Source: Paenibacillus sp. FSL M7-0420 (GTDB lineage: Bacteria; Bacillota; Bacilli; Paenibacillales; Paenibacillaceae). Taken from it: 64,000 nucleotides of DNA. Shown here piece after piece: positions 36,885 to 57,690 of the stretch. The stretch lies in NCBI RefSeq assembly GCF_038002345.1, contig NZ_JBBOCJ010000001.1, positions 4,836,001 through 4,900,000 on the forward strand, written 5' to 3'. The translations under genes were made by a program, and so were the position numbers. Numbering within the stretch: the stretch's first letter is position 1; every line of letters starts with the position of its first letter. The notes beneath the pieces are model-generated. The model did not search any database and had not been told where the DNA came from. It was given only the letters and a program-made list of their open reading frames with translations.

Positions 36885-38681
36885 CTAGTAGAAGTCTTTA
36901 CTCATAGATGCGATAATCTGGACCGTGGCACCCTTTTCCCCGCCCAAGTGGTTGTAGATGTTGAAGAACAGCCGGTTCCTGTACATCAGCTTCAGCCGGT
37001 TCACCGTATTCACAATCCCTATATTCCCAATTCCTGAGGTATCATGCCGAAGCTCGCTAACCCCGGAATCCGAGTCCTCAATATTGTCCAGAATCTCCCT
37101 GATCCTGCCCGGCGCGAAGCCTTCTCCGTTATCCCGGATTTCGATGGCCCACAGGCCGTTATATACCTTCACCCGCACCTCAATCCTCCAAGGAGGGTCT
37201 GTATTCTTAAAAGCATGCTCGATACAATTCTCCACGAACGGCTGAATCACCAGCCGGGGCAGCTCAATCCGCTCAAGGCCCCCGTCCCCGTCAATCTCCC
37301 ACTCCAGGTCGTCCTCGAAATTATGCTGAATCAGGGACAAATAATGCCGGGTATGCTTCAGCTCCTCCGTCAATGTCACATGCTGATAAGGGGAGGACAC
37401 AATATAGCGCAGGCTGTCCGACAGATGCTTGCACATTTCAGTCACAACGCTATTCTTCCCTTCCTGGGCGGCAATACTGATCAGATACAAGACATTGTGG
37501 ATGAAATGGGGGGCGATCTGGGCCTGCAAGGCGGAATTCCGCGACTTCACTTCTTCGTGGAGCGCAAGCTTTTCCCGTTCGATGGATTCCTGCAGCCGCT
37601 CCAGCAGCTCCTGAAAAGCGCTATTCAGTTGAATCAGCTCATTGTTGTGGGTACGGGGGCCCGTCTTCATATTCAGGTTGCTGTAGTTCATCCGCAGAAT
37701 CTGGCTGCGCAGCTTGCGGATCGGAAGCAGCAAGTTCCGGGTCGAGAAGTAGATGAAGATGAACGAGAACAGAATCAGCGCGGTGATCAGCAGAATGGAG
37801 AGGTATTTCACCGAATTGACCGGGCCCAGCACCACATTCCTTGGATTCACCACGTAGGTAGTCCAGCCCGTCTCAGCAGAGCGGTGATACGCCACATAGT
37901 TCTGGCCGCTGCTTAGATAGATTCCGTTAGCTGCTGCAGATTCAGAGGGAGACGCTGCGAATTCGGGGACCTTCTCCCCTTCCCGTAGTGCCGGAGAGCT
38001 GGAGACCAGCCGCCGGTCCTGATCCATAATATAGACTTTGCCGCCCGCCAGGCCTGCAGCAGATCTGTTCAAATACCGCTGGTCGAGCTGCACCGCCAGA
38101 TAGCCGAACACCTGACCATTCTGGTTCCTGATCGCCCGCACAAAAGAGATGGCATCCGCCCCCTGCCGGTACAGCGCGTAACCGCTTGCATTCCAGGTCG
38201 GCAGGTTGCTGCTCTCTTCCAGAAACGGCCTGAGCGAAGCCGGGCTATCCGCATATCCGATATAGGATGCCACCCGCTCCCCTGTCAGATCATAGATCAT
38301 CATATCCTCAATGTTCAGACTCGGCCCCAGCGCCTGGAACATGATGTCTTTCAGCCGGCGGCTCCGGGTCAGCCCTTCAAGGGTAAGCTGTGAGTAATCG
38401 CCTGCGGACAGCAGCGTGAACACCTCTTTGTTCGACAGAATCCGCTGGGAGAGCTGGTTCTGGTTACTGATATACAGGTTCAGCTGATCGCTGACCTGGG
38501 CAGCAGCCAGCTTCATTTCGTTCTCCGTCTTGTCCTTGAGCGGCTGGATCACCATATAATTCACGTAGACCAGGAAGCAGCCCAGCACAATCAGCAGCAG
38601 CAGCATGAAGGTGAAGAAGAACTTTGTTTGCAGACTGGCCTGAACCCTGCCTCCGCGTAATTTCTGTATAATAGTCGCCAA
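36885..38681 (-). CDS. YesM-type sensor histidine kinase
   Basis: A 598-residue kinase starting at TTG 38681, with GGGAGG 8 bases upstream; the longer open frame has no ribosome site. It has a first membrane segment FFFTFMLLLLIVLGCFLVYV, a Cache-like extracellular domain, a second segment SILLITALILFSFIFIYFS, HAMP, the phosphoacceptor motif QAQIAPHFIHN (Ala replaces the usual Asn of QINPHF) and an ATPase domain with ENCIEHAFK and RDNGEGFAPG. It is divergent from the importer lipoprotein. Part of its extracellular domain is duplicated as a relic at 48528-48612. Confidence 0.92.
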   Translation of the reverse strand: MATIIQKLRGGRVQASLQTKFFFTFMLLLLIVLGCFLVYVNYMVIQPLKDKTENEMKLAAAQVSDQLNLYISNQNQLSQRILSNKEVFTLLSAGDYSQLTLEGLTRSRRLKDIMFQALGPSLNIEDMMIYDLTGERVASYIGYADSPASLRPFLEESSNLPTWNASGYALYRQGADAISFVRAIRNQNGQVFGYLAVQLDQRYLNRSAAGLAGGKVYIMDQDRRLVSSSPALREGEKVPEFAASPSESAAANGIYLSSGQNYVAYHRSAETGWTTYVVNPRNVVLGPVNSVKYLSILLITALILFSFIFIYFSTRNLLLPIRKLRSQILRMNYSNLNMKTGPRTHNNELIQLNSAFQELLERLQESIEREKLALHEEVKSRNSALQAQIAPHFIHNVLYLISIAAQEGKNSVVTEMCKHLSDSLRYIVSSPYQHVTLTEELKHTRHYLSLIQHNFEDDLEWEIDGDGGLERIELPRLVIQPFVENCIEHAFKNTDPPWRIEVRVKVYNGLWAIEIRDNGEGFAPGRIREILDNIEDSDSGVSELRHDTSGIGNIGIVNTVNRLKLMYRNRLFFNIYNHLGGEKGATVQIIASMSKDFY

Positions 38682-38816
38682 GCCCGAGCCCTCCCTGAAC
38701 CTTAGGATGCTGCCTACTTTACAACCAATCGGGCGAAATGACAAGCCATCACCGGAGTTCAGAATATTACACAGAAAGTGTCAAGTACAAACATGTACCT
38801 TGTGCTCTCCTCATTC

Positions 38817-38822
38817 TATAAT
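38817..38822 (+). promoter_or_regulatory. Probable -10 box of the third importer operon
   Basis: A perfect TATAAT 53 bases before the lipoprotein start. No good -35 box lies at the right distance, which fits a promoter needing the AraC-type regulator. Confidence 0.45.
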
Positions 38823-38874
38823 GGGCAATGTAAACGGATTCAGTTCACAGAAAATACACTACGGGGGCGATCAC

Positions 38875-40209
38875 ATGAGTAAGCAAATGAAAAAAATCGC
38901 AACAGGCCTGCTCGCTGGAATCATGACCTTAACGCTGGCGGCATGCGGCTCTGACAATTCAGGCAAGGGCAATGCTGCGGCAACGGACAACGGAGGCGGT
39001 AACAGCGGAGGCAGCAGCGGCAAAAAGGTAACCATCGAGCTGGCCATCTCCAAAAGCTCGCAGGATTCGGCGTTCGTGGCCCAGGATGTGCTGGATGAAT
39101 TCGAACAGAAAACCAATATCAAAGTGAATCTGCAGCTGCTTCCGGCAGAGCAGACCGCCACCGTACTCCAGACCAAGCTGGCCGTTGACGAGGTGCCTGA
39201 CCTGATTCAATATAATCTCGCCAGTGCGACCACGGACCTGAATCTAGAGCGTAATTTCGAGATTCTCGATAATGAGCCTTGGGTAAGCCGGCTGCTGAAC
39301 AAGGATGTGCTCTCTGCTTACGATCATGTCTACAGCTTCCATTACAGCCAGGATACAGGGATGCAGGGAGTCGTCTACAACAAGGATATTTTCAAAGACC
39401 TAGGACTTGAGATTCCGAAGAATTACGAGGAGTTCCTGGCGGTCTGTGAGAAGATCAAGGCCAGCGGCATTACGCCAGTGTTCATGCCGTTCAAGGACAA
39501 CTGGGCGGCGAATATCTGGCCGGCGGCTGCTTTTGCCGACTGGGCGGCCAAGAACGAGCCGTCTCTGTTCGAAGACATTAATGCCGGCCGCAAGAAGTGG
39601 TCCGATGTTCCCGAGTTCGCCACCTTCCTGGAGCAGCAGTATGAGGTCTACAAGAAGGGCTACACCAACACCGACATTCTCAGCGACAGTTACGATATGG
39701 CTGTGGGCAAATTCCTGAACAAGGAAACGGCGATGATGTTCATGGGCGACTGGCTGATTGTGAACGTGGCTGAGAAGGACCCGAATGTGCATCTGGGACT
39801 GTTCGCCATCCCTTCTTCTGAAGACGCCAATCTCGGCGCAAGCCCGCTGGGCGGCCAGTTGTTCATTCCGAAGAAAGCCAAGCATATGGATGAAGCGAAG
39901 AAATTCCTGGAGTTCCTCGCCACCAAAGAAGTTGCGCAGAAAATGGTGGACAGCCAAGGTTCCGTCTCCAACTTCAGCGATGTTACTACGCCGAAGCTCC
40001 CGGAATACAAGCAAGAGATTGTCGATCAATATATCACCCCGAAGAAAACTACGCTGACCACCGACGCTTACATGATCGTGGACCGCAGCGAGCTGTACCG
40101 TCTGCTTCAGGATGAATTCGCCGGCGGCCTGGACGCCAAGGGCGTACTTAAGGCCTGGGATGAGAAATTCAGCCAGCTGATGAAGGACAAAGGCGTCGAA
40201 GGCTTTTAA
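38875..40209 (+). CDS. Extracellular sugar-binding lipoprotein (family 1)
   Basis: A 444-residue lipoprotein starting at ATG 38875: basic start MSKQMKK, hydrophobic core, lipobox LAAC at about residues 19-22, Gly/Asn/Ser linker, then a family 1 sugar-binding fold with GMQGVVYNKDIFKDLG and AMMFMGDWLI. A longer frame upstream includes the non-coding promoter region and was not used. It is first in the operon with two permeases and divergent from the kinase pair. A decayed duplicate of its middle lies at 48619-48860. Confidence 0.92.
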   Translation: MSKQMKKIATGLLAGIMTLTLAACGSDNSGKGNAAATDNGGGNSGGSSGKKVTIELAISKSSQDSAFVAQDVLDEFEQKTNIKVNLQLLPAEQTATVLQTKLAVDEVPDLIQYNLASATTDLNLERNFEILDNEPWVSRLLNKDVLSAYDHVYSFHYSQDTGMQGVVYNKDIFKDLGLEIPKNYEEFLAVCEKIKASGITPVFMPFKDNWAANIWPAAAFADWAAKNEPSLFEDINAGRKKWSDVPEFATFLEQQYEVYKKGYTNTDILSDSYDMAVGKFLNKETAMMFMGDWLIVNVAEKDPNVHLGLFAIPSSEDANLGASPLGGQLFIPKKAKHMDEAKKFLEFLATKEVAQKMVDSQGSVSNFSDVTTPKLPEYKQEIVDQYITPKKTTLTTDAYMIVDRSELYRLLQDEFAGGLDAKGVLKAWDEKFSQLMKDKGVEGF

Positions 40210-40235
40210 CTAGAGCAAATAACTATTACAACAGG

Positions 40236-40266
40236 CAGAATAAAGCCCGTCCAGGGCTTTATTCTG
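40236..40266 (+). terminator. Intercistronic hairpin between lipoprotein and permease genes
   Basis: A perfect 13-base stem CAGAATAAAGCCC / GGGCTTTATTCTG with a five-base loop, between the lipoprotein stop and the permease ribosome site. It probably lets binding protein be made in excess over permeases, by partial termination or by protecting the upstream message. Confidence 0.65.
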
Positions 40267-40293
40267 TCCCTGGCTATATAGGAGTGTGAAGAG

Positions 40294-41166
40294 ATGAATG
40301 TATCCAAGAGACTATACTCGTATTACCTGATCTGGCCTGCACTGCTCATCTATTCGATCTTCTTCGTGCTGCCAGCGCTGATCGGACTCTTCTATTCCTT
40401 CACCGACTGGCGGCTGGACCGGGAAGCTATCAAGTTTATCGGCTGGGACAATTTCGAACGGATTTTCACAGATCGAACGCTATTGCTTGCGATGAAAAAT
40501 ACAACGATCTTCGCCATCGTTACCGTACTCGGTAAAAATCTGCTCGGCATCGCGCTTGCGGTCGGCCTGAACATGAAGCTGAAGTCCAAAAACCTGCTGC
40601 GGGCGATTTTCTACTCGCCGTCGATCCTCAGCGTGCTGGTCATCAGCATTGTGTTCACGCCCATGCTGCGCTCCGACGGAACGATTAACCGTATCTTCGA
40701 AGCTGTGGGGCTGCCTTCGCTGAGCCAGGCCTGGCTGACCAATCCGGCCCTTGTCATCTGGACCGTAGCCTTTGTGTCCATCTGGCAGCATACCGGCTTC
40801 CAAATGGCGATCTACCTGGCCGGACTCCAGTCGATCTCCAAAGAGTATTATGAAGCCGCCACCATTGACGGCGCCGGTTCCTGGCGGAGCTTCCGCAGCA
40901 TCACGATTCCACTGCTGCTCCCTGCGATCAACATCAATCTGATGCTCACCCTGATCGGCGGGCTCAAGGTGTTCTCCGAGGTATTCGTGCTCACCGGCGG
41001 GGGGCCGGGCAATGCCTCCCAAGTAGTCGGCACGATCATCCTCCGCTCGTTCGGAGAAGGAAGCTGGGGGCTGGGTACAGCCGTCAATACCCTGCTCTTC
41101 GCTGCTGTAACCATCATCGCCATTCCCCTGCTGATCTTCATGCGGCGTAAGGAGGTATCGGAATAA
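40294..41166 (+). CDS. Carbohydrate ABC transporter permease, UgpA type
   Basis: A 290-residue permease with six hydrophobic segments, the EAA loop EYYEAATIDGAGSWRSF and the C-terminal VLTGGGPGNAS. GGAGTG lies 7-8 bases before ATG. The stop shares a base with the next start (TAATG), so the two permeases are translationally coupled and should be made in equal amounts. Confidence 0.93.
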   Translation: MNVSKRLYSYYLIWPALLIYSIFFVLPALIGLFYSFTDWRLDREAIKFIGWDNFERIFTDRTLLLAMKNTTIFAIVTVLGKNLLGIALAVGLNMKLKSKNLLRAIFYSPSILSVLVISIVFTPMLRSDGTINRIFEAVGLPSLSQAWLTNPALVIWTVAFVSIWQHTGFQMAIYLAGLQSISKEYYEAATIDGAGSWRSFRSITIPLLLPAININLMLTLIGGLKVFSEVFVLTGGGPGNASQVVGTIILRSFGEGSWGLGTAVNTLLFAAVTIIAIPLLIFMRRKEVSE

Positions 41167-41996
41167 TGAGCTTTTCACGTAAAATGGCCTGGCGCAACTA
41201 TCTGGTAGAAGGGTTCCTGATCCTGGCCTCCCTGCTGATTATCCTGCCGCTGCTGATCATGCTGTTCGGAAGCTTCATGACAAGCGCCGAGGTGCTGAAG
41301 TTCTCCTTGCGGCTCCCGGAGAAGTGGAACTTCTCCAACTATACAACGGTCTTCCGTGAAGGGGGACTGGGGCGGGCATTCCTGAACGGGATGCTGATTA
41401 CCGGCGTCTCTTCCGTGCTGAATATCTTCACCTCCTCGGCAGCCTCGTTCATTCTGGTGCGCCGGGAGACCAAATGGTCGAATTTCCTGTACATGTTCTT
41501 CTTCATGGGCCTGATCGCGCCGATGTCCACGATTACAACGATCCGCGTTGTGCAGTGGATGGGCTTCTACGGCAGCATCACCAGCGTCATCCTGATCTAT
41601 GCTTCGCTCAACACAGCGTTCAGCGTGTTCCTGTACAGCGGATTCATCCGGTCTATTCCGAAGGCGCTGGATGAGGTAGCTTTCCTGGAGGGGGCGAATA
41701 CATTCGATGTGTTCTTCCGAATCGTCACCCCGCTGATCGTCCCGGTGAACGCCACCGTAGCGATTATGGTCTTCATGTCTGTCTGGAACGACATTACCAT
41801 TCCGCTCTATTTCCTGACAGACAGCTCAGACTGGACGATGCCGCTCTCGGTATACAATTTCTACGGCAAATACAGCCGGGACTGGAATTTGATTTTCGCC
41901 GATCTGGTGCTGACCTCGCTGCCGGTGCTGATCCTGTACATTTTCTGCCAAAAGTACATTGTTAGCGGACTTACGGCGGGAGCGGTGAAGGGATAA
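41166..41996 (+). CDS. Carbohydrate ABC transporter permease, UgpE type
   Basis: A 276-residue permease with six hydrophobic segments and the EAA-type loop DEVAFLEGANTFDVF. It ends in VSGLTAGAVKG. It is the last gene of the third importer. The final 164 codons are duplicated, with small changes, as a relic at 48858-49348, and short pieces of its last codons recur in gaps of the propeller array. Confidence 0.93.
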   Translation: MSFSRKMAWRNYLVEGFLILASLLIILPLLIMLFGSFMTSAEVLKFSLRLPEKWNFSNYTTVFREGGLGRAFLNGMLITGVSSVLNIFTSSAASFILVRRETKWSNFLYMFFFMGLIAPMSTITTIRVVQWMGFYGSITSVILIYASLNTAFSVFLYSGFIRSIPKALDEVAFLEGANTFDVFFRIVTPLIVPVNATVAIMVFMSVWNDITIPLYFLTDSSDWTMPLSVYNFYGKYSRDWNLIFADLVLTSLPVLILYIFCQKYIVSGLTAGAVKG

Positions 41997-42034
41997 TGAA
42001 GGTGTGGAGAATAGGTTCTGTCAACCTGTGATGT

Positions 42035-42088
42035 AAAAGGAGCTATCCCGACAGCCATTGAAATAGTTGCTTGGGACGGCTCCTTTTT
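42035..42088. terminator. Bidirectional terminator after the third importer
   Basis: AAAAGGAGCTATCCC pairs with GGGACGGCTCCTTTT; T-runs lie on both ends. It separates the importer from the convergent RiPP operon and marks the change to AT-rich sequence. Confidence 0.7.
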
Positions 42089-42096
42089 AGTGAAAT

Positions 42097-43926
42097 TCAC
42101 GTAAGCACTTCCCCCTGAATTGCTCGCTCTCTTTGAAAGGCTTCTGCTTCATCAGAAAATAGTTTATAATAAATCCCTCGTTTAACAATTAATTGTTGGT
42201 GTGTTCCGAATTCTACTACCTGACCTTCATTTAATACAATAATCCTATTCGCATATAAGACAGATGTATATCTATGCGATATGTATACACCTATCTTTCC
42301 TTCTATATAATTTTGGAATTGCAGAAATACTTGTTTTTCTGATTCCGGATCAAGAAAAGAGCTTGGTTCATCCATAATATAAAGATCAGCATCTTTAAAG
42401 AAAGCTCTGGATATGGCTATTTTTTGCCATTGCCCACCAGAAATTTGAACCCCTCCTTCAAAGTTCCTTCCTAGCTGTTGATCTATTTGATTGGGGAAAC
42501 TTTTAATTAGTTCATCTGCACCAGTAAGTTGGGCTGAATTCCCTATTTCAGAGGTACTATCCATCTTTTCGAGGTCACCAAAACCAATATTTTCTCTAAC
42601 AGTAAAATCAAATTGGATAAAATCCTGAAATATAACACCAATTTTTTTGTATAATGTATCTTTACTGTAATTATGTATGGATATTGAATTAATTAATATT
42701 TCACCTGTAAAATCATCATATAAGCCTGTCATTAATTTAATTATCGTTGATTTCCCCGATCCGTTTCTTCCAACAAATGCAACAGAGTCATTTGTTTGTA
42801 TTTTGAAATTGAGGTCTTTTAGCGCGTAAACTGTTTGACCAGGATAAATAAAGGAAACATTTATAAACTCTATACTTTCTATTTGATCCATTTTAACGAA
42901 ACTCTGCTTTAACAGCGTATTTTCATAACTTTTTTGACTTTTATTTAGAAATGAGAATAATTCATCCAAGTATAAATTATTTTCGCACAAGGAAATTAAT
43001 CCTTGAGAGATAGCATTAATATTCTGGTTTGTAAGCAATACTGCTTGTACCAAACCATATATACTACCTAAGAGTAGACTCTCTTGAAATGACACATATA
43101 CAATAATATAAAGAACTATCGAGATAAAAAGAGTACTAATTAATTGAAAGAATAGATATAAAACTGTTCGTCTTTTTGATAGGTCTTTATCCTCCTTATA
43201 AAATCTATTAAAAATATCTTTGTACCTAATACTTAAATAGTCATTTAAGCGATATAGTTTAATTTCTTTGAATGCCTTATCATTCGTTAACAAAAAATTA
43301 ATATAACTTGCTTTCCTTTGCAAAGGAGATCTTTTTCTTTTTGAAATATATTGAATTTGTGCGAACTTCAATAACGAATAGAATGAAAATAAAGGTGACA
43401 CAAGAAGAATAATCACTAACCACCACTTGAAATTTAGTATAATAACAATACTAGAAATCAGAGTAATAATTGAGCTTATAAGATTTATTAATAACTTATA
43501 TACTTGGATGGGCCGGTCTATCGAATCTTGCATAACTCTTCTTAGCTGATTATGAATTTCAGGATCTTCATAATCACGTAGCATAAAATCAGAGGTTTTT
43601 GTTACTATTGAAACTTGCAAGTGGTTTATTAATAATAGCTGGTATAACTTTTCAAAGTGTTCAAGAATAGACGTAACAAAGAGACTACAAATCAGAACAA
43701 AAATCAAAGGCAGAATAGGGTATATCATCACGTTGAATGATCGCTCTTCGATTTTCATCACTAAAAATTGAATGGAAAAAAGATTTATTATTGGTAAAAA
43801 ACCTTTAATTATATAACAAAAAATAATTAATGAAAAATAACTTCTTTTTGCCCTCCATAATAATTTCCCAAGTTCCGGCCAGTACCGAAATGATGCAAAT
43901 ATAGTTTTGATATTGATCCCATCCAT
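42097..43926 (-). CDS. ABC exporter (fused membrane and ATPase domains), RiPP operon
   Basis: A 609-residue half-transporter starting at ATG 43926 (GGAGGG upstream). An N-terminal membrane domain of about 320 residues is followed by an ATPase domain with Walker A GRNGSGKST, signature ISGGQWQK and Walker B LYIMDEPSSFLD. It lacks the N-terminal C39 peptidase of bacteriocin exporters, so it would not cleave a leader itself. It is the last gene of the AT-rich operon that begins with the Cys-rich precursor peptide, and is the natural candidate for export of the mature peptide. Self-immunity is an alternative role. Confidence 0.88.
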   Translation of the reverse strand: MDGINIKTIFASFRYWPELGKLLWRAKRSYFSLIIFCYIIKGFLPIINLFSIQFLVMKIEERSFNVMIYPILPLIFVLICSLFVTSILEHFEKLYQLLLINHLQVSIVTKTSDFMLRDYEDPEIHNQLRRVMQDSIDRPIQVYKLLINLISSIITLISSIVIILNFKWWLVIILLVSPLFSFYSLLKFAQIQYISKRKRSPLQRKASYINFLLTNDKAFKEIKLYRLNDYLSIRYKDIFNRFYKEDKDLSKRRTVLYLFFQLISTLFISIVLYIIVYVSFQESLLLGSIYGLVQAVLLTNQNINAISQGLISLCENNLYLDELFSFLNKSQKSYENTLLKQSFVKMDQIESIEFINVSFIYPGQTVYALKDLNFKIQTNDSVAFVGRNGSGKSTIIKLMTGLYDDFTGEILINSISIHNYSKDTLYKKIGVIFQDFIQFDFTVRENIGFGDLEKMDSTSEIGNSAQLTGADELIKSFPNQIDQQLGRNFEGGVQISGGQWQKIAISRAFFKDADLYIMDEPSSFLDPESEKQVFLQFQNYIEGKIGVYISHRYTSVLYANRIIVLNEGQVVEFGTHQQLIVKRGIYYKLFSDEAEAFQRERAIQGEVLT

Positions 43927-43970
43927 CTTACCCTCCAAAGCTTTACCTTCTCCCATTATTTCGCGCTAAA

Positions 43971-45128
43971 TCAATCGTTAATGGTAAGTTTTTGACGACG
44001 ACTTTCCGTATAGATATTCATTGGGTTTTCTTCAAGTGTTTTTTTGATCATTTGATGTTTCAAGAGATTAATATTATCCTTTGAAGTACCCGTATCATTA
44101 GTTAATATGTAATCTATCCATTTGCTTACCCAGTCAAATCCATAATTAAAATCTAGCAGTTTGTTAGAATATATGTTAATGATCAGTTGGTCACCATTCT
44201 TCATCATGACTTTTGGTTCTACAGAGGATACAGCATAACGTTGAGTAATTTCTAAAGAGTAGCGCTTTGGAGCTATATGAAGCCCATCAGCTATATTGTA
44301 TAAATAATCTATAACAACACCGAACTTCTCAGCCCTATCCCTACTCATTCCTTTGTAATGGACCTGTGTTGTTCCAATTTTTATAATTTTAAATTCATTA
44401 CTTTCAAGCCGCTTATCATGCGTATATTCATAGATACGTATGCCACTAAATAGACACAACGCAATTCCAACGGTTAACCACGTAATCAGACTTTTCTTCC
44501 CACCTCCTCGACGATACGAAAATATAGTTGCCATTCCATAAAACAATAGAACCGCAGCAAAAATCGAAATAATATTCCTAAAGTTTATTAGGTAGGGATT
44601 GTAAATATTAAGCACTGGAGATACATATCTGAATTTTTCGTGTAGAGTCCATGGAATTAATCCAATGGTTAAATATAAAGTAATCAGAATCAGTATTCCT
44701 AAACCATGCTTGCGGATTACTTCACCTACCAAAAGACCTGATACAACAGCAAAAAAGCCGGAAAAAAGGGCAATAAGCCCAATATTAAAGTCTGGAACAT
44801 CCCCAAACCAGATACGTAATGTGCCCCATATTATTATTATCACAGGTGAAGTTATGATTACTGCTACAATTCCTTGATTAAAAATTTTACGGTTGGTAGA
44901 GATTATTGACAAAAATACAAATTGCTCTGCTTGATATCTTTTGCTTAAATTAGCCGCCTGCAGTGCAAACAAAGCAATAAATAATAAATCCAGGCTAATT
45001 TTCAAAATCAAATCTTCATTCATTTGAAAATTAAAATATACTATTACCATTAAAGAAAACAGGTATATTCCTGTATTGGCCTTGCCAAAGAAAAGAAGCA
45101 ACCAAAATCGTATTAGATTTAAGTTCAT
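43971..45128 (-). CDS. Membrane protein of unknown function, RiPP operon
   Basis: A 385-residue protein starting at ATG 45128, overlapping the upstream stop by 4 bases. The first 230 residues hold about six hydrophobic segments; the last 150 form a soluble domain (from about EFKIIKIGTTQVHYKGM onward). No HExxH, Ser-protease or Cys-protease motif was seen. Its place between the ABC-2 permease and the ABC exporter suggests a part in export, leader removal or immunity. Not recognised as a named family. Confidence 0.7.
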   Translation of the reverse strand: MNLNLIRFWLLLFFGKANTGIYLFSLMVIVYFNFQMNEDLILKISLDLLFIALFALQAANLSKRYQAEQFVFLSIISTNRKIFNQGIVAVIITSPVIIIIWGTLRIWFGDVPDFNIGLIALFSGFFAVVSGLLVGEVIRKHGLGILILITLYLTIGLIPWTLHEKFRYVSPVLNIYNPYLINFRNIISIFAAVLLFYGMATIFSYRRGGGKKSLITWLTVGIALCLFSGIRIYEYTHDKRLESNEFKIIKIGTTQVHYKGMSRDRAEKFGVVIDYLYNIADGLHIAPKRYSLEITQRYAVSSVEPKVMMKNGDQLIINIYSNKLLDFNYGFDWVSKWIDYILTNDTGTSKDNINLLKHQMIKKTLEENPMNIYTESRRQKLTIND

Positions 45129-45811
45129 AATCTCCCCCTTGCTTTCCACAGACGATTGCTAAAATACATTAGAATTAATGCAATACACAATATAAAAGTT
45201 CTTCCTACAAAAAAAGACGAGTCAAAAAAATGACTGGTAATCCAATCCGGGTTAAACCATATCGAAAAGGCCGGAGAATTCACTGACATCCCTATAACAA
45301 GAAAAATAATATTAAATATATTTACGTATACCTGTTTTTTTAATAATAAGCTCAAAAGAGCAGCAATTTGAACAGATATACCAATTGTCGTAAACGAGGT
45401 GTAAATTAACGGAAGTATTAAATCAAAAAAGTTGACTCCATAAAATAACACATGACCTCCGAGAATAAGGATTAAGCAACTGGATTGTGCCAGAAAGATA
45501 ATCCCCCACAAAACACAAACTTTACATACAAGATATAGGTAGTTTGAATGCAATTTAGGAATGATGGTTGAATAGATCATCGCTTGCTTATCATCGTCAT
45601 AAAGAAAAGAATATAGAATTGGCATTGCTAAAATACAGAAAAATAATTGTCCGTGCAACAAGAATACCCACATTTCTTTATCCTTTGAACCCGTAGATAA
45701 ATACAGAAACATAGGTATCAAAAAAGTGATCAGGAAAACCAAAATGTTATATAATAAATTTTTCTTTAACAACAGTATTTCAAATCGAACTAAAACTTTC
45801 ACCTCCCTCAC
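45125..45811 (-). CDS. ABC-2-type permease, RiPP operon
   Basis: A 228-residue membrane protein with about six hydrophobic segments, starting at GTG 45811 with GAGGGGG 10 bases upstream, directly after the ATPase gene; longer starts inside that gene lack ribosome sites. It is the membrane partner of the 45816-46697 ATPase. Pairs of this kind in peptide clusters usually give immunity by pumping the product out. The start choice is not certain. Confidence 0.78.
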   Translation of the reverse strand: MREVKVLVRFEILLLKKNLLYNILVFLITFLIPMFLYLSTGSKDKEMWVFLLHGQLFFCILAMPILYSFLYDDDKQAMIYSTIIPKLHSNYLYLVCKVCVLWGIIFLAQSSCLILILGGHVLFYGVNFFDLILPLIYTSFTTIGISVQIAALLSLLLKKQVYVNIFNIIFLVIGMSVNSPAFSIWFNPDWITSHFFDSSFFVGRTFILCIALILMYFSNRLWKARGRL

Positions 45812-45815
45812 TCTA

Positions 45816-46697
45816 TTAAGGCCCCCTCTCATTATCAGATATATACAGATAAGCATCTTCCAGGTTTGGAGTCTCTAGTGTATATTCCCCATATTTTTCC
45901 GGAGGACTGTTATCTAGCAAACGAACTTGCATTAACCCCCTTTTCCTAACAACAGATATGATCCGGCTTTCATTACTTAATTGTTGCAACTGCCCTTTAT
46001 CCACTTCAACTAACCATATTTTCCCTTCCACTTTATGGATAGCCTCATCAACACTCCCATTATAAAGACAGCTTCCTTTCTTTAAAATAAGTACATTGTC
46101 ACAGGTGCTTGAGATATCCGGTACAATATGCGTAGATAACAATACAATGCGATCTTCCGAAAAACTGTGAAGCAAGTTTCTAAAAGCAATTCGCTCCTTT
46201 GGATCAAGCCCCACCGTAGGTTCATCAATAATTAACAACTGGGGAAGGTTTAACATAGCTTGAGCGATACCAAATCGTTGTTTCATACCGCCTGAAAGTT
46301 GCTTGATTTTTTTATGAGCATGTTCTTCAAGACCCACTTCAACTAGTCTTTGTGAAATTTCTTCCTGTATTCTTCGTTGACCTATTAACCCCTTTAAAGC
46401 AGCAAAATAATTCATGGACTCAGTGATTGTTGCATCAGGGAAAAAATCAAAATTTTGTGGAAGATATCCTAACATGGAACGAATTGCATCAGGCTCTTTT
46501 CTTAGCGAATATCCAAACATACTTACATCGCCCTCGTTAAACCCTAGCAGTGTTGCTAGAATTTTCATTAAGGTAGTTTTACCAGCCCCATTATCACCAA
46601 GCAAACCAAAAATCCCCTTATTAATTTGAAAACTTAACTGATTAATGACTTGATTACTGCCGTATTTTTTACTCAATGCTTCCACTTCAACTGACAA
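45816..46697 (-). CDS. ABC transporter ATP-binding protein, RiPP operon
   Basis: A 293-residue ATPase of the CcmA/BcrA type: Walker A GDNGAGKTT, signature LSGGMKQR, Walker B LLIIDEPTVGLDP. It starts at TTG 46697 with AAGGAGG 9 bases upstream, overlapping the end of the maturase gene by 11 bases. Together with the adjacent ABC-2 permease it forms a transporter separate from the fused exporter at the operon end. Confidence 0.9.
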   Translation of the reverse strand: MSVEVEALSKKYGSNQVINQLSFQINKGIFGLLGDNGAGKTTLMKILATLLGFNEGDVSMFGYSLRKEPDAIRSMLGYLPQNFDFFPDATITESMNYFAALKGLIGQRRIQEEISQRLVEVGLEEHAHKKIKQLSGGMKQRFGIAQAMLNLPQLLIIDEPTVGLDPKERIAFRNLLHSFSEDRIVLLSTHIVPDISSTCDNVLILKKGSCLYNGSVDEAIHKVEGKIWLVEVDKGQLQQLSNESRIISVVRKRGLMQVRLLDNSPPEKYGEYTLETPNLEDAYLYISDNERGP

Positions 46698-48099
46698 TCA
46701 TTTCTTCCTCCTTTATCATCTTGTTATTAAACAATTTATCTTTATCCTCCTCGTCCAACCTCAAGTATAATCTGATGCAATCATTTATTGCACTTCTAGT
46801 AAACTCACAGGAAATTTCTAGCGGATCTTCTATAGCTCCAGTGTTCTTTAAATTTTCATGTGGGCAATCTCCACCACATAAGTTAATTGCCCAACATTCC
46901 TTACACTTTGTTCTTTCTTCTAGACTAAATTCCTTTAATATTTCCTTCTCCCTAAGGCGGGAAACTCCTTTATTCACATTTCCCAGAGAATAATTTTTTT
47001 CACTAACAAATCTTTGACATGGATACAAATCTCCATGAACATCAACAGCTAGCATATGGGAAGCAGCCCCACAATAATAATGCCGTTTGGAAGATGAATG
47101 AACCCTTCTTAGATATTTGTATATATTTGAGATTTCCCGAGCCTTCTTATACTCCTTACTATGTATTAAAGTCTCAAAATAATTTACCAGTTTGGTGAAT
47201 TCAAGTGAGTAATCCTCATAATCCTTAACATTAAGCATCTGAACTGCAGGATACATAGCAACATTTCGAAATCCAATTTCATTTAAATGTTTTAATGTAT
47301 AGGTAATATCGAGTTGAACCGGGGAGACAGTAGCTCTCGCTGAGATCATTCCATTCTTTCTTAATTTCTCAGTCCTATTAAGAATAAGATCATAGCTGCC
47401 TTCTTTATTCTGAAAATAGCGGTTAAAATCATGAGTTTTCTGATCTCCATCCAGACTCACTTGTATTGCTACCTGATGCTCCATTAAATAGTCAACAACG
47501 TCTTTAGTAAGCAAGGTTCCATTTGTGGTCATACTATACCTTACTCTTTTCCCTGTTTGTTTTTCTTTGCTTTGGACATAAGGAATGATATCCTGAATGA
47601 GTTTATAATTAAGTAATGGCTCTCCACCGAAAAAACAAATGCTTAGTTCTTCCTCCAAAGCTTGATCAAATAAAAAATCTATAGCTTGGGTAGCTGTATC
47701 CATGTCCATCCTGCCACGGTCATTGTATTCTCCATTAACACCATAACAATAAGAACATCTCAGATTACATTCTTGAACCAGCATAAGAATCAGAGAAGAG
47801 ACCCCGTTCGTCTCTTTTATACAAGCACAGGAATCTGTATTAATGTCATCCACTGAATCTTGCACACGTAAAACTCCTGCTTTCTCTAGCGTAGTAAGTA
47901 ATTCACTTAACTCTTCCATGCTATATTTATTTTTTAGAAGTTGGTAAAGTTCTTCAATAGTTTTCCCGTCACTGTTGCAAATATCTACTATTGTGTCATC
48001 TACTTGAAATATCCCGCTATTCTCAACATTATATAGATATAAATTATCTTGCTCTTCGAAAAATTTTACAGCTTTAATTGTTATTAGACTATTAAACAT
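46687..48099 (-). CDS. Radical SAM/SPASM peptide maturase (PapB-like ranthipeptide synthase candidate)
   Basis: A 470-residue enzyme if started at ATG 48099 (GTG 48111 lies almost on top of the AAGGA site). The N-terminal 85 residues have the length and mixed alpha/beta look of a RiPP recognition element. The cluster motif is CNLRCSYC (Cys111, 115, 118), followed by ICFFGGEPLL. The C-terminal SPASM domain is complete: Cys-x16-Gly-x4-Cys, then CKECWAINLCGGDC (Cys-x2-Cys-x5-Cys-x3-Cys), then a further Cys. This is the architecture of thioether-forming maturases of sactipeptides and ranthipeptides. It lies 85 bases downstream of the six-Cys precursor gene. Confidence 0.9.
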   Translation of the reverse strand: MFNSLITIKAVKFFEEQDNLYLYNVENSGIFQVDDTIVDICNSDGKTIEELYQLLKNKYSMEELSELLTTLEKAGVLRVQDSVDDINTDSCACIKETNGVSSLILMLVQECNLRCSYCYGVNGEYNDRGRMDMDTATQAIDFLFDQALEEELSICFFGGEPLLNYKLIQDIIPYVQSKEKQTGKRVRYSMTTNGTLLTKDVVDYLMEHQVAIQVSLDGDQKTHDFNRYFQNKEGSYDLILNRTEKLRKNGMISARATVSPVQLDITYTLKHLNEIGFRNVAMYPAVQMLNVKDYEDYSLEFTKLVNYFETLIHSKEYKKAREISNIYKYLRRVHSSSKRHYYCGAASHMLAVDVHGDLYPCQRFVSEKNYSLGNVNKGVSRLREKEILKEFSLEERTKCKECWAINLCGGDCPHENLKNTGAIEDPLEISCEFTRSAINDCIRLYLRLDEEDKDKLFNNKMIKEEEMIVS

Positions 48100-48128
48100 T
48101 AATAACTTCACTTCCTTCTCAAAATATT

Positions 48129-48160
48129 AGAAAGCCTAAGAATTGCTTCTTAGACTTTCT
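48129..48160 (-). terminator. Hairpin between precursor peptide and maturase genes
   Basis: On the minus strand AGAAAGTCTAAGAA pairs with TTCTTAGGCTTTCT around a four-base loop, followed by AATATTTT. It probably ends most transcripts after the precursor, giving substrate peptide in excess over the maturase. Confidence 0.75.
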
Positions 48161-48183
48161 TTTGTTTATAGATGAAAATTCAA

Positions 48184-48339
48184 TCAATCCCCATCATTAC
48201 GAATACACCAACCACTCTCGTTGTTTCCACAAATAAAGTCAAAAGCATCACAGTCTACGCATTTGTCTCTTGCATCGCATGTTATGCAAAACATAGGTGA
48301 CACACTACCACTTGCAACGACATTAACAGGTTTAAACAT
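48184..48339 (-). CDS. Freyrasin-like ranthipeptide precursor (51 residues, six Cx3D/E motifs)
   Basis: ATG 48339 has a perfect AGGAGGT 7 bases upstream. The 51-residue product has a short Cys-free N-terminus (residues 1-17, beginning MFKPVNVVASG) and a Cys/Asp-rich core. All six cysteines are followed four residues later by an acid: Cys18-Asp22, Cys21-Asp25, Cys27-Asp31, Cys30-Asp34, Cys37-Glu41, Cys45-Asp49. The first four come as two interleaved eight-residue repeats, CITCDARD and CVDCDAFD. Freyrasin, a Paenibacillus ranthipeptide, also has six Cys-x3-Asp units joined as thioethers to the Asp beta carbon by PapB. The maturase and transporters follow in the same direction. Alternative: a small CxxC metal-binding protein, which would not explain the strict x3 spacing. 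Confidence 0.85.
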   Translation of the reverse strand: MFKPVNVVASGSVSPMFCITCDARDKCVDCDAFDFICGNNESGWCIRNDGD

Positions 48340-48527
48340 CCGACTACCTCCTATATTTTGGAATTATGTAATACTTAGTTAGTTTAGCTCGTTCATTCGC
48401 TTTTATCTACATATAAACAGGATTTTTTTGAATATTTTGTTAATGTTTTTAAATTAAAGTATTTTTTAACTAATAGAGATCATGTTCGGCTTGGTTATTA
48501 TCAAACGGAATGCATGGACGTAGCGGT

Positions 48528-48612
48528 TGGTCTCCAACTCCCCCACATTGCGGGAAGGAGAAAAGGCTCCGGCATTCGCTGCATCTGCATCTGTTAACGG
48601 AATCTACCTGAG
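48528..48612 (+). pseudogene. Relic of sensor kinase extracellular domain
   Basis: GGTTGGTCTCCAACTC onward matches, with scattered changes, the kinase gene segment near 37920-38010 (minus strand), and includes GGAATCTACCTGAGCAGC. It is on the plus strand, so it is inverted relative to the intact kinase. It ends abruptly at the lipoprotein relic. Confidence 0.75.
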
Positions 48613-48618
48613 CAGCAG

Positions 48619-48860
48619 CCTGAGCCGTCCCTGTTCGAGGACATTAATGCCGGCCGCAAAAAAGTGGTCCGATGTTCCCGAGTTCGCCACCTTCCTGGAG
48701 CAAACAGTATGAGGTCTACAAGAAAGACTACACCACGACATTCTCAGCGACAGCTACGATATGGCAGTAGGCAAATTCCTGAATCAAGGAAACGGCGATG
48801 ATGTTCATGGGCGACTGGCTGATTGTGAACGCGGCCGAGAAGGACCGAATATGCATCTGG
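48619..48860 (+). pseudogene. Relic of sugar-binding lipoprotein gene
   Basis: Matches 39556-39800 of the intact lipoprotein gene (for example ACATTAATGCCGGCCGCAA and TTCATGGGCGACTGGCTGAT). Single-base insertions and deletions break the frame at several points, such as an extra A in GCAAAAAAGTGG and a lost C before GAATATGC. Clearly non-functional. Confidence 0.82.
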
Positions 48861-49348
48861 GCCTGATTGCCCCAATGTCCACGATCACCACGATCCGTGT
48901 CGTGCAGTGGATGGGCTTCTACGGCAGCATCACCAGCGTTATTCTGATCTACGCTTCGCTCAACACGGCGTTCAGTGTGTTCCTGTACAGCGGATTCATC
49001 CGGTCCATTCCGAAGGCGCTGGATGAGGTGGCTTTTCTGGAGGGGGCGAATACATTCGATGTGTTCTTCAAGATCGTCACCCCGCTGATCGTCCCGGTGA
49101 ACGCTACCGTAGCCATTATGGTCTTCATGTCCGTGTGGAATGATATCACCATACCGCTCTACTTCCTGACCGACAGCTCGGATTGGACGATGCCGCTCTC
49201 CGTGTACAATTTCTACGGCAAATACAGCCGGGACTGGAACCTGATCTTCGCCGATCTGGTATTAACCTCCCTACCCGTACTGATCCTGTATATCTTCTGC
49301 CAGAAATACATTGTTAGCGGACTTACGGCGGGAGCGGTGAAGGGATAA
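48858..49348 (+). pseudogene. Relic of UgpE-type permease, C-terminal two thirds
   Basis: Near-identical at protein level to residues from LIAPMSTITTIRVVQ to the C-terminal GLTAGAVKG of the 41166-41996 permease. It is joined to the lipoprotein relic at a short shared sequence (CTGGGCCTG / ATGGGCCTG), suggesting deletion at microhomology. The first membrane segments are missing, so it should not work, although the remaining frame is intact. Confidence 0.85.
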
Positions 49349-49384
49349 CCTCAGCCCCTTTTGTGGCTTTCTAGGACTTTGGAT

Positions 49385-49515
49385 CATTCGGGCCGGAGCA
49401 TTCAGACATAACATACAGCAGACAACCTGATGCGGCATCCGGGAGATCCGGCGCGCCTGCCCATCCGGTTGTCCGTCCGCCGGGCCCGGCGAGTCCATGA
49501 GCCAGAAGCACATGA
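49385..49515 (+). repeat. Propeller-gene leader, copy L1
   Basis: A conserved leader before the first propeller gene: GGGCCGGAGCATTCAGACAT, then a GC-rich block GGCGCGCC, CCATCCGGTTGTCCGTCCG and the 14-base perfect palindrome CGCCGGGCCCGGCG (49478-49491), then AGCACATGAAAGGGG, the ribosome site. The same order recurs before four more copies. Confidence 0.85.
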
Positions 49516-49530
49516 AAGGGGTTTTTAATT

Positions 49531-50700
49531 ATGAATACAAAAATAGCAAACCACAGAAGAAATCTAGCATCAAATTTTAATCCTTACGTGTTTGCGAGTT
49601 ATGAACTTTCCTATTATTTTGGCTACGTCGCTGTCATTGATCCTGTATACAATAAGGTCACCAAACGGATTCCGGTAGGCCTTAACCCTGGTCCTATGTG
49701 CTTGAATCCAAGTGAGGATAAGCTCTATGTAGTAAATACGGGCAATGATTCGGTCACTATCATTGATGCATATAACTTTAACGTTATCAAAACCCTTCAC
49801 ATTGGCTCTTCGTCCACCTCTAGCGCTCCTGTTGCTATCTTCGCTGCTGCTAACGTGAACAAAGTCTATGTAGCCCATTCGGGTAACAGGGCCGTTACAA
49901 TTATTGACTCCGTCACAGATACGGTTATTAAGCAAGTGGATTTGCCTAGCGGAAGCGGCTACCCTTTTGCCTTTGCCGGTAAGGTGAACAGTCTCTTTGT
50001 CTTTGTTGCCTGCAAGTCTAAAGATAATGATAAAGGTAATGTTGTCGCCATTTCCGTTGACGATGATACCGCCCATCCAGTTGGGGATGATACTCCGCTT
50101 GAATTTGACGGGACCCACAACCCCTTGACCGTGTACCCAGGCGGAGTGGAACTGGTCACACTTGGGCAGACTGGCATGCTGACTCATTTTGAACAACTTA
50201 CAATGGGTCCGTCCAAAACTTCAAGTATGCTGGACAATACGGTATCCGGGATCTATCTGGATAACAAAATGTTATTTTGCACCTCGCGGGAAGATAGAGC
50301 CTATCTGAAAAAATTCAACAACCTGTTCATGGACCAGCAAGGAAACATCACCCATGATCAATTCACAGAAATCCCTAGCTACAAAGGCCAGGATAAAATC
50401 CGTGTTTCAAGTGATCAAAGTACTATTTGCATCACCATTCAACCCACCACTTTCCCGACAGGTGGTCTGCAAATTTACGATGTAAACGCTGCTAGCTCAA
50501 AGTTTGTTCCGCTCCCTTATGTCGGTGATTTAGCACTTTACGATGACATCATTGCCTATGTAGGACAACTGACTTCGATTCAACCGATTGCTTTGGGAAA
50601 TCCAAGTAATCCCATTCCTGCTATTCCGATTGGCACAAGTCTCTCAGACCGCGTCAACGTGAAGAACATTATTTCCGGTTATAGCAATCAGTCCTTGTAA
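49531..50700 (+). CDS. YVTN/YncE-like beta-propeller protein, copy 1
   Basis: A 389-residue protein built of propeller blades with the YVTN pattern (YGYVAVID-like FGYVAVIDPVYNKVTKRI, then KLYVVNTGNDSVTIID and KVYVAHSGNRAVTIID). It ends in the array-wide tail IISGYSNQS. No signal peptide, lipobox or membrane segment is visible, so it appears cytoplasmic unless exported in an unusual way. AAAGGGG lies 9 bases before ATG. YncE-type propellers bind ligands or partners, and no catalytic residues can be assigned. It heads a tandem family of seven. Function unknown. Confidence 0.87.
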   Translation: MNTKIANHRRNLASNFNPYVFASYELSYYFGYVAVIDPVYNKVTKRIPVGLNPGPMCLNPSEDKLYVVNTGNDSVTIIDAYNFNVIKTLHIGSSSTSSAPVAIFAAANVNKVYVAHSGNRAVTIIDSVTDTVIKQVDLPSGSGYPFAFAGKVNSLFVFVACKSKDNDKGNVVAISVDDDTAHPVGDDTPLEFDGTHNPLTVYPGGVELVTLGQTGMLTHFEQLTMGPSKTSSMLDNTVSGIYLDNKMLFCTSREDRAYLKKFNNLFMDQQGNITHDQFTEIPSYKGQDKIRVSSDQSTICITIQPTTFPTGGLQIYDVNAASSKFVPLPYVGDLALYDDIIAYVGQLTSIQPIALGNPSNPIPAIPIGTSLSDRVNVKNIISGYSNQSL

Positions 50701-50721
50701 TGCACATTTAATATAAAAATC

Positions 50722-50766
50722 GAGCTCTCTTCAAGTCGAAACGGACTTGAGGACAGCTCTTTTTTT
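50722..50766 (+). terminator. Terminator after propeller copy 1
   Basis: GAGCTCTCTTCAAGTC pairs with GACTTGAGGACAGCTC, followed by a run of seven T. The same stem with small changes follows copies 2 to 5. Confidence 0.85.
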
Positions 50767-50853
50767 GCCAGAAATGCATTGTAAGCGGACTTACAGCGGG
50801 AGCGGTGAAGGGTAATCTCAGCCCTTTTTGTGGCTTTATTGGACAAATGTATT

Positions 50854-50985
50854 AATCGGGCCGGAGCATTCAGACATAACATACAGTAGACAACCTGATG
50901 CGGTATCCGGTAGATCCCGGCGCGCCTGCCCATCCGGTTGTCCGTCCGCCGGGCCCGGCGGGTCCATTATCCAGCAACACATGAA
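50854..50985 (+). repeat. Propeller-gene leader, copy L2
   Basis: Close copy of L1 with the palindrome extended to CCGCCGGGCCCGGCGG. It is preceded at 50768-50815 by about 45 bases matching the end of the permease gene (AGCGGACTTACAGCGGGAGC), a trace of how the unit was duplicated. Confidence 0.85.
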
Positions 50986-50999
50986 AGGGGTTTTTATTC

Positions 51000-52175
51000 G
51001 TGAATACGAATATGGCAAAGCGTCGCAGAAATTTATCATCAGGTACTAATCCTTACGTGTTTGTGAGTTATGAACATTCCCTTTACTTTGGCTATATTGC
51101 TGTCGTTGATCCTGCACAAAATAAGATCATTGAACGGATTATGGTGGGCCCAAAGCCCGTATCTATGTGCTTGAATAACCAGGAGGATAAGCTTTATGTA
51201 GTGAGTAATGCCCAGGATTCGGTCACTATCATTGATGCGTATGAATTTAAAATTATCAAAACCCTTCCCATTAACACTTCGTCCGCTAATAGCGCTCCTG
51301 TTGCTATCTTCGCTGCTGCTGGCGTGAACCAAGTCTATGTAGCCCATTCTGGTGACAAGGTCGTTACAATTATTGACGCCGACAAGGACGAGGTTATTGT
51401 ACAAGTGGAATTGCCTGACGGAAGTGGCTACCCGTTCGCCTTTGCCGGCCAGATGAATAGCGCCTTCGTCTTTGTTGCCTGCAAGTCTAAAGATAATGAT
51501 AAAGGTAATGTTGTCGCTATTGATGTTAATTCTAACATCGCTCAACCTGTTGGGGATGATATTGAGCTTGAATTTGACGGGACCCACAACCCCTTGGCCC
51601 CATCCGTAGCGGGGCTAACCACATTTGGACCGACTGGCATGTTGACTTTTTTTTCATTTCATTTAATTGTTGAATCCAAAACTACAAGTCTGCTGGACAA
51701 TACGGTATCCGGAGTCCACCTGGACAACAATTTGTTATTTTGCACATCGCAAAAAGATAGAGCTTATCTGAAAAAATTTAAAAAGCTAGCTCTTACCGGG
51801 ACAGGAAACATTATCTATGATGAGTTTACAGAACCCGCCAGCTTCAAGGGCCAAGATAAAATTCGTGCTACACGTAGTCAAAATTATATTGGCGTCACCA
51901 TACAGCCCACCACTTCCCCGACAGGTGGTCTGCAACTCTACGATGTAAACACTTCTAGTTCAAAGTTTGTTCCGCTCCCCTATGTAGGTGATCTAGCGTT
52001 TGCCGGTGACAGCACGGCTTATGTAGGAGAGGTGAACTCGATTGTTCCGATTGATGTGGGAACGGCAACAGCGCTGCCCGCTCTTCTGATTGGCTACAAT
52101 TCCACTGATCGCATCACCGTCAATAATATAATCTGCGGTTATAGCAATCAATCCTTGAATGTAGATTTAGTATAA
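51000..52175 (+). CDS. YVTN/YncE-like beta-propeller protein, copy 2
   Basis: A 391-residue paralogue starting at GTG 51000 (AAAGGGG 9 bases upstream). The blades match copy 1. Its first 75 residues and last 120 residues are almost the same as copy 4, while the middle differs at many positions; the tail is extended to NQSLNVDLV as in copy 4. No secretion signal. The pattern suggests recent duplication or gene conversion at both ends with the middle kept different. Confidence 0.87.
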   Translation: MNTNMAKRRRNLSSGTNPYVFVSYEHSLYFGYIAVVDPAQNKIIERIMVGPKPVSMCLNNQEDKLYVVSNAQDSVTIIDAYEFKIIKTLPINTSSANSAPVAIFAAAGVNQVYVAHSGDKVVTIIDADKDEVIVQVELPDGSGYPFAFAGQMNSAFVFVACKSKDNDKGNVVAIDVNSNIAQPVGDDIELEFDGTHNPLAPSVAGLTTFGPTGMLTFFSFHLIVESKTTSLLDNTVSGVHLDNNLLFCTSQKDRAYLKKFKKLALTGTGNIIYDEFTEPASFKGQDKIRATRSQNYIGVTIQPTTSPTGGLQLYDVNTSSSKFVPLPYVGDLAFAGDSTAYVGEVNSIVPIDVGTATALPALLIGYNSTDRITVNNIICGYSNQSLNVDLV

Positions 52176-52181
52176 AAATCG

Positions 52182-52228
52182 AGCTGTCGCTTCAAGTCTA
52201 ACTGGACTTGGGGGACAGCTTTTTTTCT
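52182..52228 (+). terminator. Terminator after propeller copy 2
   Basis: AGCTGTCGCTTCAAGTC with GACTTGGGGGACAGCT and a T-run; shared design with the other copies. Confidence 0.83.
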
Positions 52229-52248
52229 ATCTTACTGGACATTAGGAC

Positions 52249-52380
52249 TATTCGGGCCGGAGCATTCAGACATAACATATAGCAGACAACCTGATGAGGC
52301 ATCCGGGAGAATCCGGCGCGCCTGCCCATCCGGTTGTCCGTCTGCCGGGCCCGGCGAGTCCATTAAATAGAGCTGCATGA
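52249..52380 (+). repeat. Propeller-gene leader, copy L3
   Basis: Leader before copy 3, with GGCGCGCC and CCGGGCCCGGCG (here CTGCCGGGCCCGGCGAG, so the left arm of the palindrome has one change). No permease trace precedes it. Confidence 0.83.
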
Positions 52381-52395
52381 AAGGGGATTTTATCT

Positions 52396-53538: not shown

Positions 53539-53559
53539 TGCATTTTTAGTATAGAAACC

Positions 53560-53605
53560 GAGCTGTCTCTTTAAGTCGAAACGGACTTGGGGGCAGCTCT
53601 TTTTT
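53560..53605 (+). terminator. Terminator after propeller copy 3
   Basis: GAGCTGTCTCTTTAAGTC with GACTTGGGGGCAGCTC and a T-run. Confidence 0.83.
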
Positions 53606-53694
53606 GCCAGAAATGCATTGTTAGCGGACTTACGGCGGGAGCAGTGAAGGGGTGAGCTCTGCCCTTTTTGTGACTTTCATGGACAAATGGATTA

Positions 53695-53825
53695 TTCGGG
53701 TCGGAGCATTCAGACATAACATATAGCAGACAACCTGATGCGGCATCCGGATACAACCGGCGCGCCTGCCCATCCGGTCGTCCGTCCGCCGGGCCCGGCG
53801 GGTCCATTATCCAGCAGCACATGAA
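53695..53825 (+). repeat. Propeller-gene leader, copy L4
   Basis: Leader with the 16-base palindrome CCGCCGGGCCCGGCGG. A permease-tail trace (CAGAAATGCATTGTTAGCGG) precedes it at 53608-53653, as before copy 2. Confidence 0.85.
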
Positions 53826-53839
53826 AGGGGTTTTTATTC

Positions 53840-55021: not shown

Positions 55022-55026
55022 AAATC

Positions 55027-55072
55027 GAGCTGTCGCTTCAAGTCGAACTGACTTGGGCGGCAGCTTTTTTTC
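55027..55072 (+). terminator. Terminator after propeller copy 4
   Basis: AGCTGTCGCTTCAAGTC with GACTTGGGCGGCAGCT and a T-run, matching the terminator of copy 2. Confidence 0.83.
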
Positions 55073-55093
55073 TATCTTACTGGACATTAGGAC

Positions 55094-55225: not shown

Positions 55226-55240
55226 AAGGGGTTTTTATTC

Positions 55241-56395: not shown

Positions 56396-56432
56396 CAGTA
56401 ATCAATTATATAGGCCATTAACCGTTAAGGCG

Positions 56433-57664: not shown

Positions 57665-57690
57665 CAACGCCCTTGAAAGGAGATGTAACC

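Follow-up and report, generated by a model that had tools for sequence, protein, structure and literature searches.

The window analysed here, a stretch of 64,000 nucleotides from Paenibacillus sp. FSL M7-0420 (contig NZ_JBBOCJ010000001.1, positions 4,836,001 to 4,900,000), carries an operon of six genes, all on the minus strand, which is judged from its sequence to be a freyrasin-family (PapA/PapB) ranthipeptide cluster, apparently intact and a member of a known family. It is composed of a short precursor gene, a radical SAM/SPASM maturase, an ATP-binding cassette (ABC) ATPase (abcA), a presumed permease (perm), a membrane protein (memb), and an ABC exporter (abcX) (Table 1), and none of the six open reading frames (ORFs) has an internal stop. 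A sequence-only reading had proposed a freyrasin-like ranthipeptide operon at this place. The coordinates, strand, and sequence of its precursor were correct on re-check, the ribosome site was found as described, with six bases between the end of AGGAGGT and the precursor ATG, and the neighbours were those it had named (a radical SAM/SPASM enzyme, an ABC ATPase with a permease, an unannotated membrane protein, and an ABC exporter). The family assignment is upheld by the score of the maturase against the PapB model and by the conservation of Cys-X3-acid motifs in relatives.

All six cysteines of the precursor are followed at +4 by Asp or Glu, as the earlier reading held (Cys18/Asp22, Cys21/Asp25, Cys27/Asp31, Cys30/Asp34, Cys37/Glu41, and Cys45/Asp49); when the non-Cys residues of positions 18–51 were shuffled, all six acids fell at +4 by chance in 32 of 500,000 trials. 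A database search with the peptide returned a single match, P0001, 96% identical, and several freyrasin-type relatives already carry the NCBI name "freyrasin family ranthipeptide". The earlier reading had called the precursor uncalled; the window peptide falls below the cutoff of NF037957, the NCBIfam model of the freyrasin family. That model was matched at E ≤ 1 by 13 of 17 aligned precursors, in which M1, N6, and C21 are invariant (N6 in 17/17). The role of the conserved leader Asn is treated in PMC9413430.

The maturase was found to score 415.3 bits against NF047865, the PapB ranthipeptide maturase equivalog (cutoff 340), the only model whose cutoff was passed among the best 25 of 80 NCBIfam models. 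The SCIFF maturase class was rejected (TIGR03974, 257.8 bits, far under its cutoff of 425), as were the other SPASM classes among these 25, nif11 and QhpD included, each below its own cutoff. Across 37 aligned homologues, the CX3CX2C motif of radical SAM enzymes (CNLRCSYC), C347, C365, C403, C406, C412, C416, C435, and R367 are invariant. Arg367 (474-residue numbering) aligns with Arg372 of a freyrasin-type enzyme (L131), equivalent to Arg372 of PapB, which is required for activity (PMC9413430). The best PDB match by sequence and by model fold is CteB (structure model, mean pLDDT 89), and the strands and helices of the RRE-like N-terminal region are modelled confidently and lie within that match; a PqqD hit is weak (E 0.07) and under cutoff. 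The start is more likely ATG 48099 than GTG 48111, since the resulting 470 residues equal the length of the database protein P0002. A further radical SAM enzyme of the source genome (G000:C1:3611348-3612340) reaches 188 bits against NF047865, under its cutoff.

Maturases over the NF047865 cutoff occur at 16 places in 15 of 394 Paenibacillaceae-level genomes. Beside the freyrasin type, two further groups are referred to here: group 2, to which the window belongs, and group 3, together covering nine genomes (G000, G067, G351, G774, G757, G345, G273, G348, and G769). The six-gene operon was found at 40%–71% identity in P. ottowii (G351 is taken as the P. ottowii genome of locus L009, the coordinates being identical) and in G345, which carries one freyrasin-type and one group-2 cluster, and also in G774 and G757. 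In a quick tree of 66 rows, six group-2 loci and two database proteins form one fully supported clade, and group 3 is placed with the freyrasin type (85% support). Of the loci from a contig scan with the maturase (best 80 loci), only L009 and L077 served as sources of PapB-type precursors; the scan also gave other SPASM maturases of 26%–36% identity, most of them taken to be SCIFF-type. L137, L144, and L152 yielded no ORF resembling the expected precursor. L119 (G043) holds a weak NF037957 match containing an internal stop; L133 (G277, 8791-10093) has an orphan group-2 precursor adjoining a deletion-made frame that fuses maturase and exporter pieces; and in L194 (G749, 7069-8124), a cluster of the freyrasin type, the maturase is shortened at its N-terminus and no adjacent precursor was found.

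Table 1. Position and description of the features of the locus (window coordinates).
Feature	Position	Strand	Remarks
Precursor ORF	48184..48339	-	51 residues; leader MFKPVN...SP, its Asn6 invariant in the family
Shine-Dalgarno AGGAGGT of the precursor	48346..48352	-	
Stem-loop, 14 bp, terminator/attenuator-like	48129..48160	-	between precursor and maturase genes
Maturase, PapB-family radical SAM/SPASM	46687..48111	-	RRE-like N-terminal region, CNLRCSYC, SPASM cysteines, Arg367 (474-aa numbering)
abcA, ABC ATPase of ABC-2-type system	45816..46697	-	PF00005; kept alongside the cluster
perm, presumed ABC-2-type permease	45125..45856	-	overlaps abcA; no family match
memb, membrane protein	43971..45149	-	ABC-2-TM-like N-terminal half; M1/gluzincin-core-like C-terminal domain without HExxH (tentative fold)
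abcX, fused membrane/ATPase ABC exporter	42097..43956	-	PF00005; MsbA-like matches below curated cutoffs
Inserted segment (operon and patchwork sugar-transport gene copies, ~48522-49348)	41997..49348	.	

Ring pattern and the fifth acceptor

Twenty-seven precursors were tabulated, near-duplicates among the others being omitted, and 117 of their 141 cysteines have an acid at X3, so that relatives conserve the Cys-X3-acid spacing and not CxxC pairs alone. The freyrasin-type precursors (L142, L143, L145, P0124, P0127, P0128, and P0129) all show X3-acid at six of six cysteines together with two interleaved CxxCDxxD blocks (7/7); the label follows NCBI names for P0124, P0127, P0128, and P0129 and similarity for the others, and PapA's own sequence was not part of the comparison. 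The suggestion that interleaved blocks would give a new topology therefore falls, the same two blocks being present in all seven and natural PapA having both in-line and nested links (PMC9413430).

The six group-2 precursors, including the orphan of G277, have Asp at X3 at five sites (6/6), and their fifth Cys faces Glu, at X3 in the window and P0001 and at X2 in L146, L147, L148, and L118. In group 3 (L149 and L150; L151 repeats L150), the fifth Cys faces Glu at X4. Across the two groups, Glu at the fifth Cys is thus retained in each of the eight tabulated precursors. P0131, a Lysinibacillus peptide named freyrasin family ranthipeptide, ends in ...CSGGWET, one residue past its fifth-Cys CX4E site, and lacks the sixth Cys.

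The Glu acceptor had also been put forward as a novelty. Its chemistry is not new, because PapB can use Glu, linked through S-Cgamma, in mutants and in designed substrates (PMC9413430, PMC8172795). Natural Cys-Glu S-Cgamma links are made by QhpD in quinohemoprotein amine dehydrogenase (PMC11002830). What stands is a conserved natural Glu with drifting spacing: no naturally conserved Glu ring in a ranthipeptide was found described in the titles, abstract openings, and passages searched, a search that did not take in the primary freyrasin papers (Hudson 2019, Precord 2019). The precursors make a natural Cys-Xn-Glu ring of drifting size plausible in groups 2 and 3.

Two further patterns were observed in this family. 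An orphan group-3-like precursor in G750 (L187, 5460-5615) has Glu in its first motif and CTGGSE (CX4E) at the fifth Cys. In the other PapB-family precursors L089, L123, and L138-L141, the first Cys of each CxxCD pair has Asp at X3, but in the last pair the Asp of the second Cys lies at X4 or X5, a hint that ring size may depend on position across the PapB family.

Transporter genes, flanks, and insertion

The gene perm had no match in family searches and is presumed to be an ABC-2 permease because it is placed between abcA and memb. The exporter abcX likely exports the modified peptide. Its true start lies probably slightly downstream of that of the longest ORF, because the G067 frame has a stop at codon 5 (its other five ORFs being free of stops) and the relatives' exporter proteins align from about residue 5–7 onward. 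No leader peptidase was recognised among the operon genes, and no promoter signal exceeded shuffled sequence. The stem-loop in the precursor–maturase gap has a z of -5.27, and in relatives a stem of at least 12 bp occurs in six of seven gaps folded, with a sequence that varies among groups (7 bp in the seventh, L134; whole-gap z -1.30 to -4.45); it probably allows precursor mRNA above the level of maturase mRNA.

The module abcA-perm-memb is present in all nine group-2/3 clusters with an intact maturase. A search with memb over the 394 genomes gave 13 genomes with a match, four of which (G105, G751, G756, and G750) have no maturase over the cutoff. In G105 and G751, the sequence on both sides of an internal gap matches that of complete clusters (G348, G273); the gap removes the precursor, the maturase, and nearly the whole exporter and ends near the exporter 3' end, and an 18-codon remnant of the exporter end in G105 points to loss rather than gain. 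In G756, the maturase is reduced to stumps, the exporter is split, no precursor was detected, and the module is intact. With G277, found through its precursor, five group-2/3 clusters are broken, and in three of them (G105, G751, and G756) the module is intact. When orphan and complete clusters are compared, abcA and memb have a dN/dS (nonsynonymous to synonymous rate ratio) of 0.05–0.22. In a counter-search of the window abcX against 295 genomes, outside which group 3 lay and in which G756, G757, G774, G105, G751, and G750 are not among the matches listed, exporter identity of at least 61% was found, among the matches listed, in five genomes, namely, four complete clusters and G277. The half exporter of G277 was the only such match without the module, and no whole group-2 exporter without the module was seen among the matches listed in this small sample. 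Other genomes gave matches of 30%–42% identity, which resemble ABC exporters of a general kind. Retention of the module fits self-immunity, which these genomes suggest and do not prove.

The contrast in base composition described by the sequence-only reading is sharp on the left and weaker on the right: guanine–cytosine content is ~33% over the operon (29%–36% per 1-kb bin, 42001-48000), 53%–55% on the left (bins 37001-42000), and 43%–49% on the right (bins 49001-59000). Eight relatives (G046, G094, G086, G050, G084, G083, G085, and G059) have a left-flank permease that leads into right-flank sequence, the operon being absent there, and the island is common to the window and G067 at 95.5% identity. 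At its right edge, 48522-49348 consists of ~91% patchwork copies of a substrate-binding-protein gene and a permease 3' end from 39.5–42.0 kb, with a more diverged (71%), inverted stretch like a kinase gene. The cassette is accordingly read from these comparisons as a horizontally acquired AT-rich insertion (~41997-49348), and the operon-free site in eight relatives together with the island shared with G067 means that it was either inserted in an ancestor of the source genome and G067 or moved between the two. G067 encodes an identical precursor peptide, with three synonymous and no nonsynonymous differences, and dN/dS between the two is 0.16–0.29 for the maturase, abcA, perm, and memb.

Further to the right, 49531-58900 holds a tandem gene array that differs among relatives and is unmatched in the parts of G067 and G059 that were compared; from their repeats, we take its genes to be YVTN-type beta-propeller-like. 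Repeats of 52–57 bp of the permease 3' end stand between propeller genes (50761-50816 and 53600-53653), are also present in relatives, and form a possible recombination hotspot.

Proposed mechanism and rival readings

From the sequence-based results (maturase family, motif conservation, operon conservation, and horizontal insertion), a mechanism can be proposed in which the intergenic stem-loop would let the precursor be made in excess of the maturase, whose RRE-like N-terminal region would bind the short leader containing Asn6. Thioethers would then join each Cys to the acidic residue at +4, with S-Cbeta bonds to the five Asp acceptors and an S-Cgamma bond to Glu41 at the fifth Cys. The product would have as many as six rings (-12 Da), and two interlocked pairs would account for four of them. 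AbcX would export the product, and AbcA, Perm, and Memb would form a second, ABC-2-type transporter, most likely protecting the producer. This scheme, in which a freyrasin-type ranthipeptide is made and exported by the cassette, is the best explanation as a whole, with a probability of about 80%. A bolder joint claim is that of a branch with a dedicated Cys-Xn-Glu (S-Cgamma) ring, n = 2, 3, or 4 drifting between species and five Asp rings fixed, with an antimicrobial product and an ABC-2 transporter whose dead peptidase domain acts as a peptide sensor to protect the producer; taken together, these parts are unlikely all to hold. Several points weigh against the proposed scheme. The precursor reaches 26.5 bits against NF037957 (curated cutoff 30), the maturase is only 39%–41% identical to freyrasin-type maturases, and the basal order of the quick tree leaves its placement relative to the freyrasin type unsettled. 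Relatives have CX2E or CX4E at the fifth site, and PapB is reported not to have acted on CX4D and, for the most part, not on CX2D (PMC8172795). G750 keeps memb with a stop in abcA and a short perm, and G277 has lost all three module genes; the search that brought up four of the five broken clusters was made with memb itself, so that its retention is partly built in, and the permease of orphan modules has a dN/dS of 0.27–0.48, on few changes.

The fifth-site points would favour a product of five rings only, with the fifth Cys free or paired otherwise, as spacing there varies over X2, X3, and X4 while the other five sites keep X3. This is rather unlikely, though a little less so than the joint claim is: Glu is kept in all eight precursors despite the shift in spacing, P0131 terminates just past its CX4E with no sixth Cys, and PapB takes spacings of n = 0–6 as well as Glu (PMC9413430). 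Closer to an even chance, yet short of it, is the reading of abcA-perm-memb as a second exporter or a peptide-sensing or peptide-processing transporter, not an immunity system, the orphan modules being chance leftovers of deletions. The broken clusters are only five, two of them without an intact module, most were reached through memb, and the tentative peptidase-like C-terminal fold of memb could bind or process a peptide. However, two deletions at different loci stop near the exporter 3' end and spare the three genes, abcA and memb have the dN/dS given above (though this partly predates the deletions), and memb lacks HExxH and is therefore unlikely to be a zinc peptidase. An operon that is a decayed or silent import without product, in keeping with an AT-rich island next to scrambled flank copies, broken clusters in relatives, and the lack of a promoter signal above shuffles, is quite improbable, given the stop-free window ORFs, the five clean ORFs of G067 (its exporter having a stop only at codon 5), and a precursor dN of zero beside three synonymous changes. 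With regard to toxicity, the antibacterial function of ranthipeptides is called unclear in PMC12935882, and SCIFFs are argued from their wide spread to be non-antimicrobial in PMC8326336.

With the production and export of a freyrasin-type ranthipeptide as the preferred reading, two things deserve attention, the putative Glu ring, conserved yet varying in size, and the candidate immunity module; the novelty of interlocking rings falls away. The CX2E/CX3E/CX4E series of species is a natural test set for the ring-size strictness of PapB-type enzymes, on which PMC8172795 and PMC9413430 disagree, and clusters in which the three-gene transporter outlives the biosynthetic genes provide a direct test for self-immunity and hence for toxicity.

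Comparison with known systems

The SCIFF/CteB ranthipeptides share with the window the radical SAM/SPASM maturase fold, CteB being the best PDB match, and differ in the precursor, which is of another type, and in the maturase, which falls short of the SCIFF cutoff as given above. Freyrasin (PapA/PapB, Paenibacillus polymyxa; NF047865, NF037957) has in common with the window a PapB-family maturase and a precursor of ~50 residues that has six Cys-X3-acid motifs, two interleaved CxxCDxxD blocks, and a short leader of the form M-[LF]-x-x-[IV]-N, and clusters of this type have a neighbouring ABC exporter (L131 and L195). The order of the blocks is interleaved-interleaved-single-single in the window and single-interleaved-interleaved-single in the freyrasin type. 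Unlike freyrasin, the window has Glu as its fifth acceptor, the additional abcA-perm-memb, a maturase of the limited identity noted above, and a precursor below the family cutoff.

Group 3 of Paenibacillus (G273, G348, and G769) shares abcA-perm-memb, the pair of interleaved blocks, and a fifth Cys that faces Glu, whereas its exporter stands before the module, its fifth motif is CX4E, and its maturase is ~38% identical to that of the window. The P. ottowii-type clusters (L009, L132, L190, and L191) possess the same six genes in the same order, with a precursor 51%–55% identical by tblastn (L009 and L132) and a maturase ~59%–60% identical; they differ from the window in their neighbouring genes and in the fifth motif, which is CX2E (CSKE) in the P. 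ottowii type and CX3E (CGNNE) in the window.

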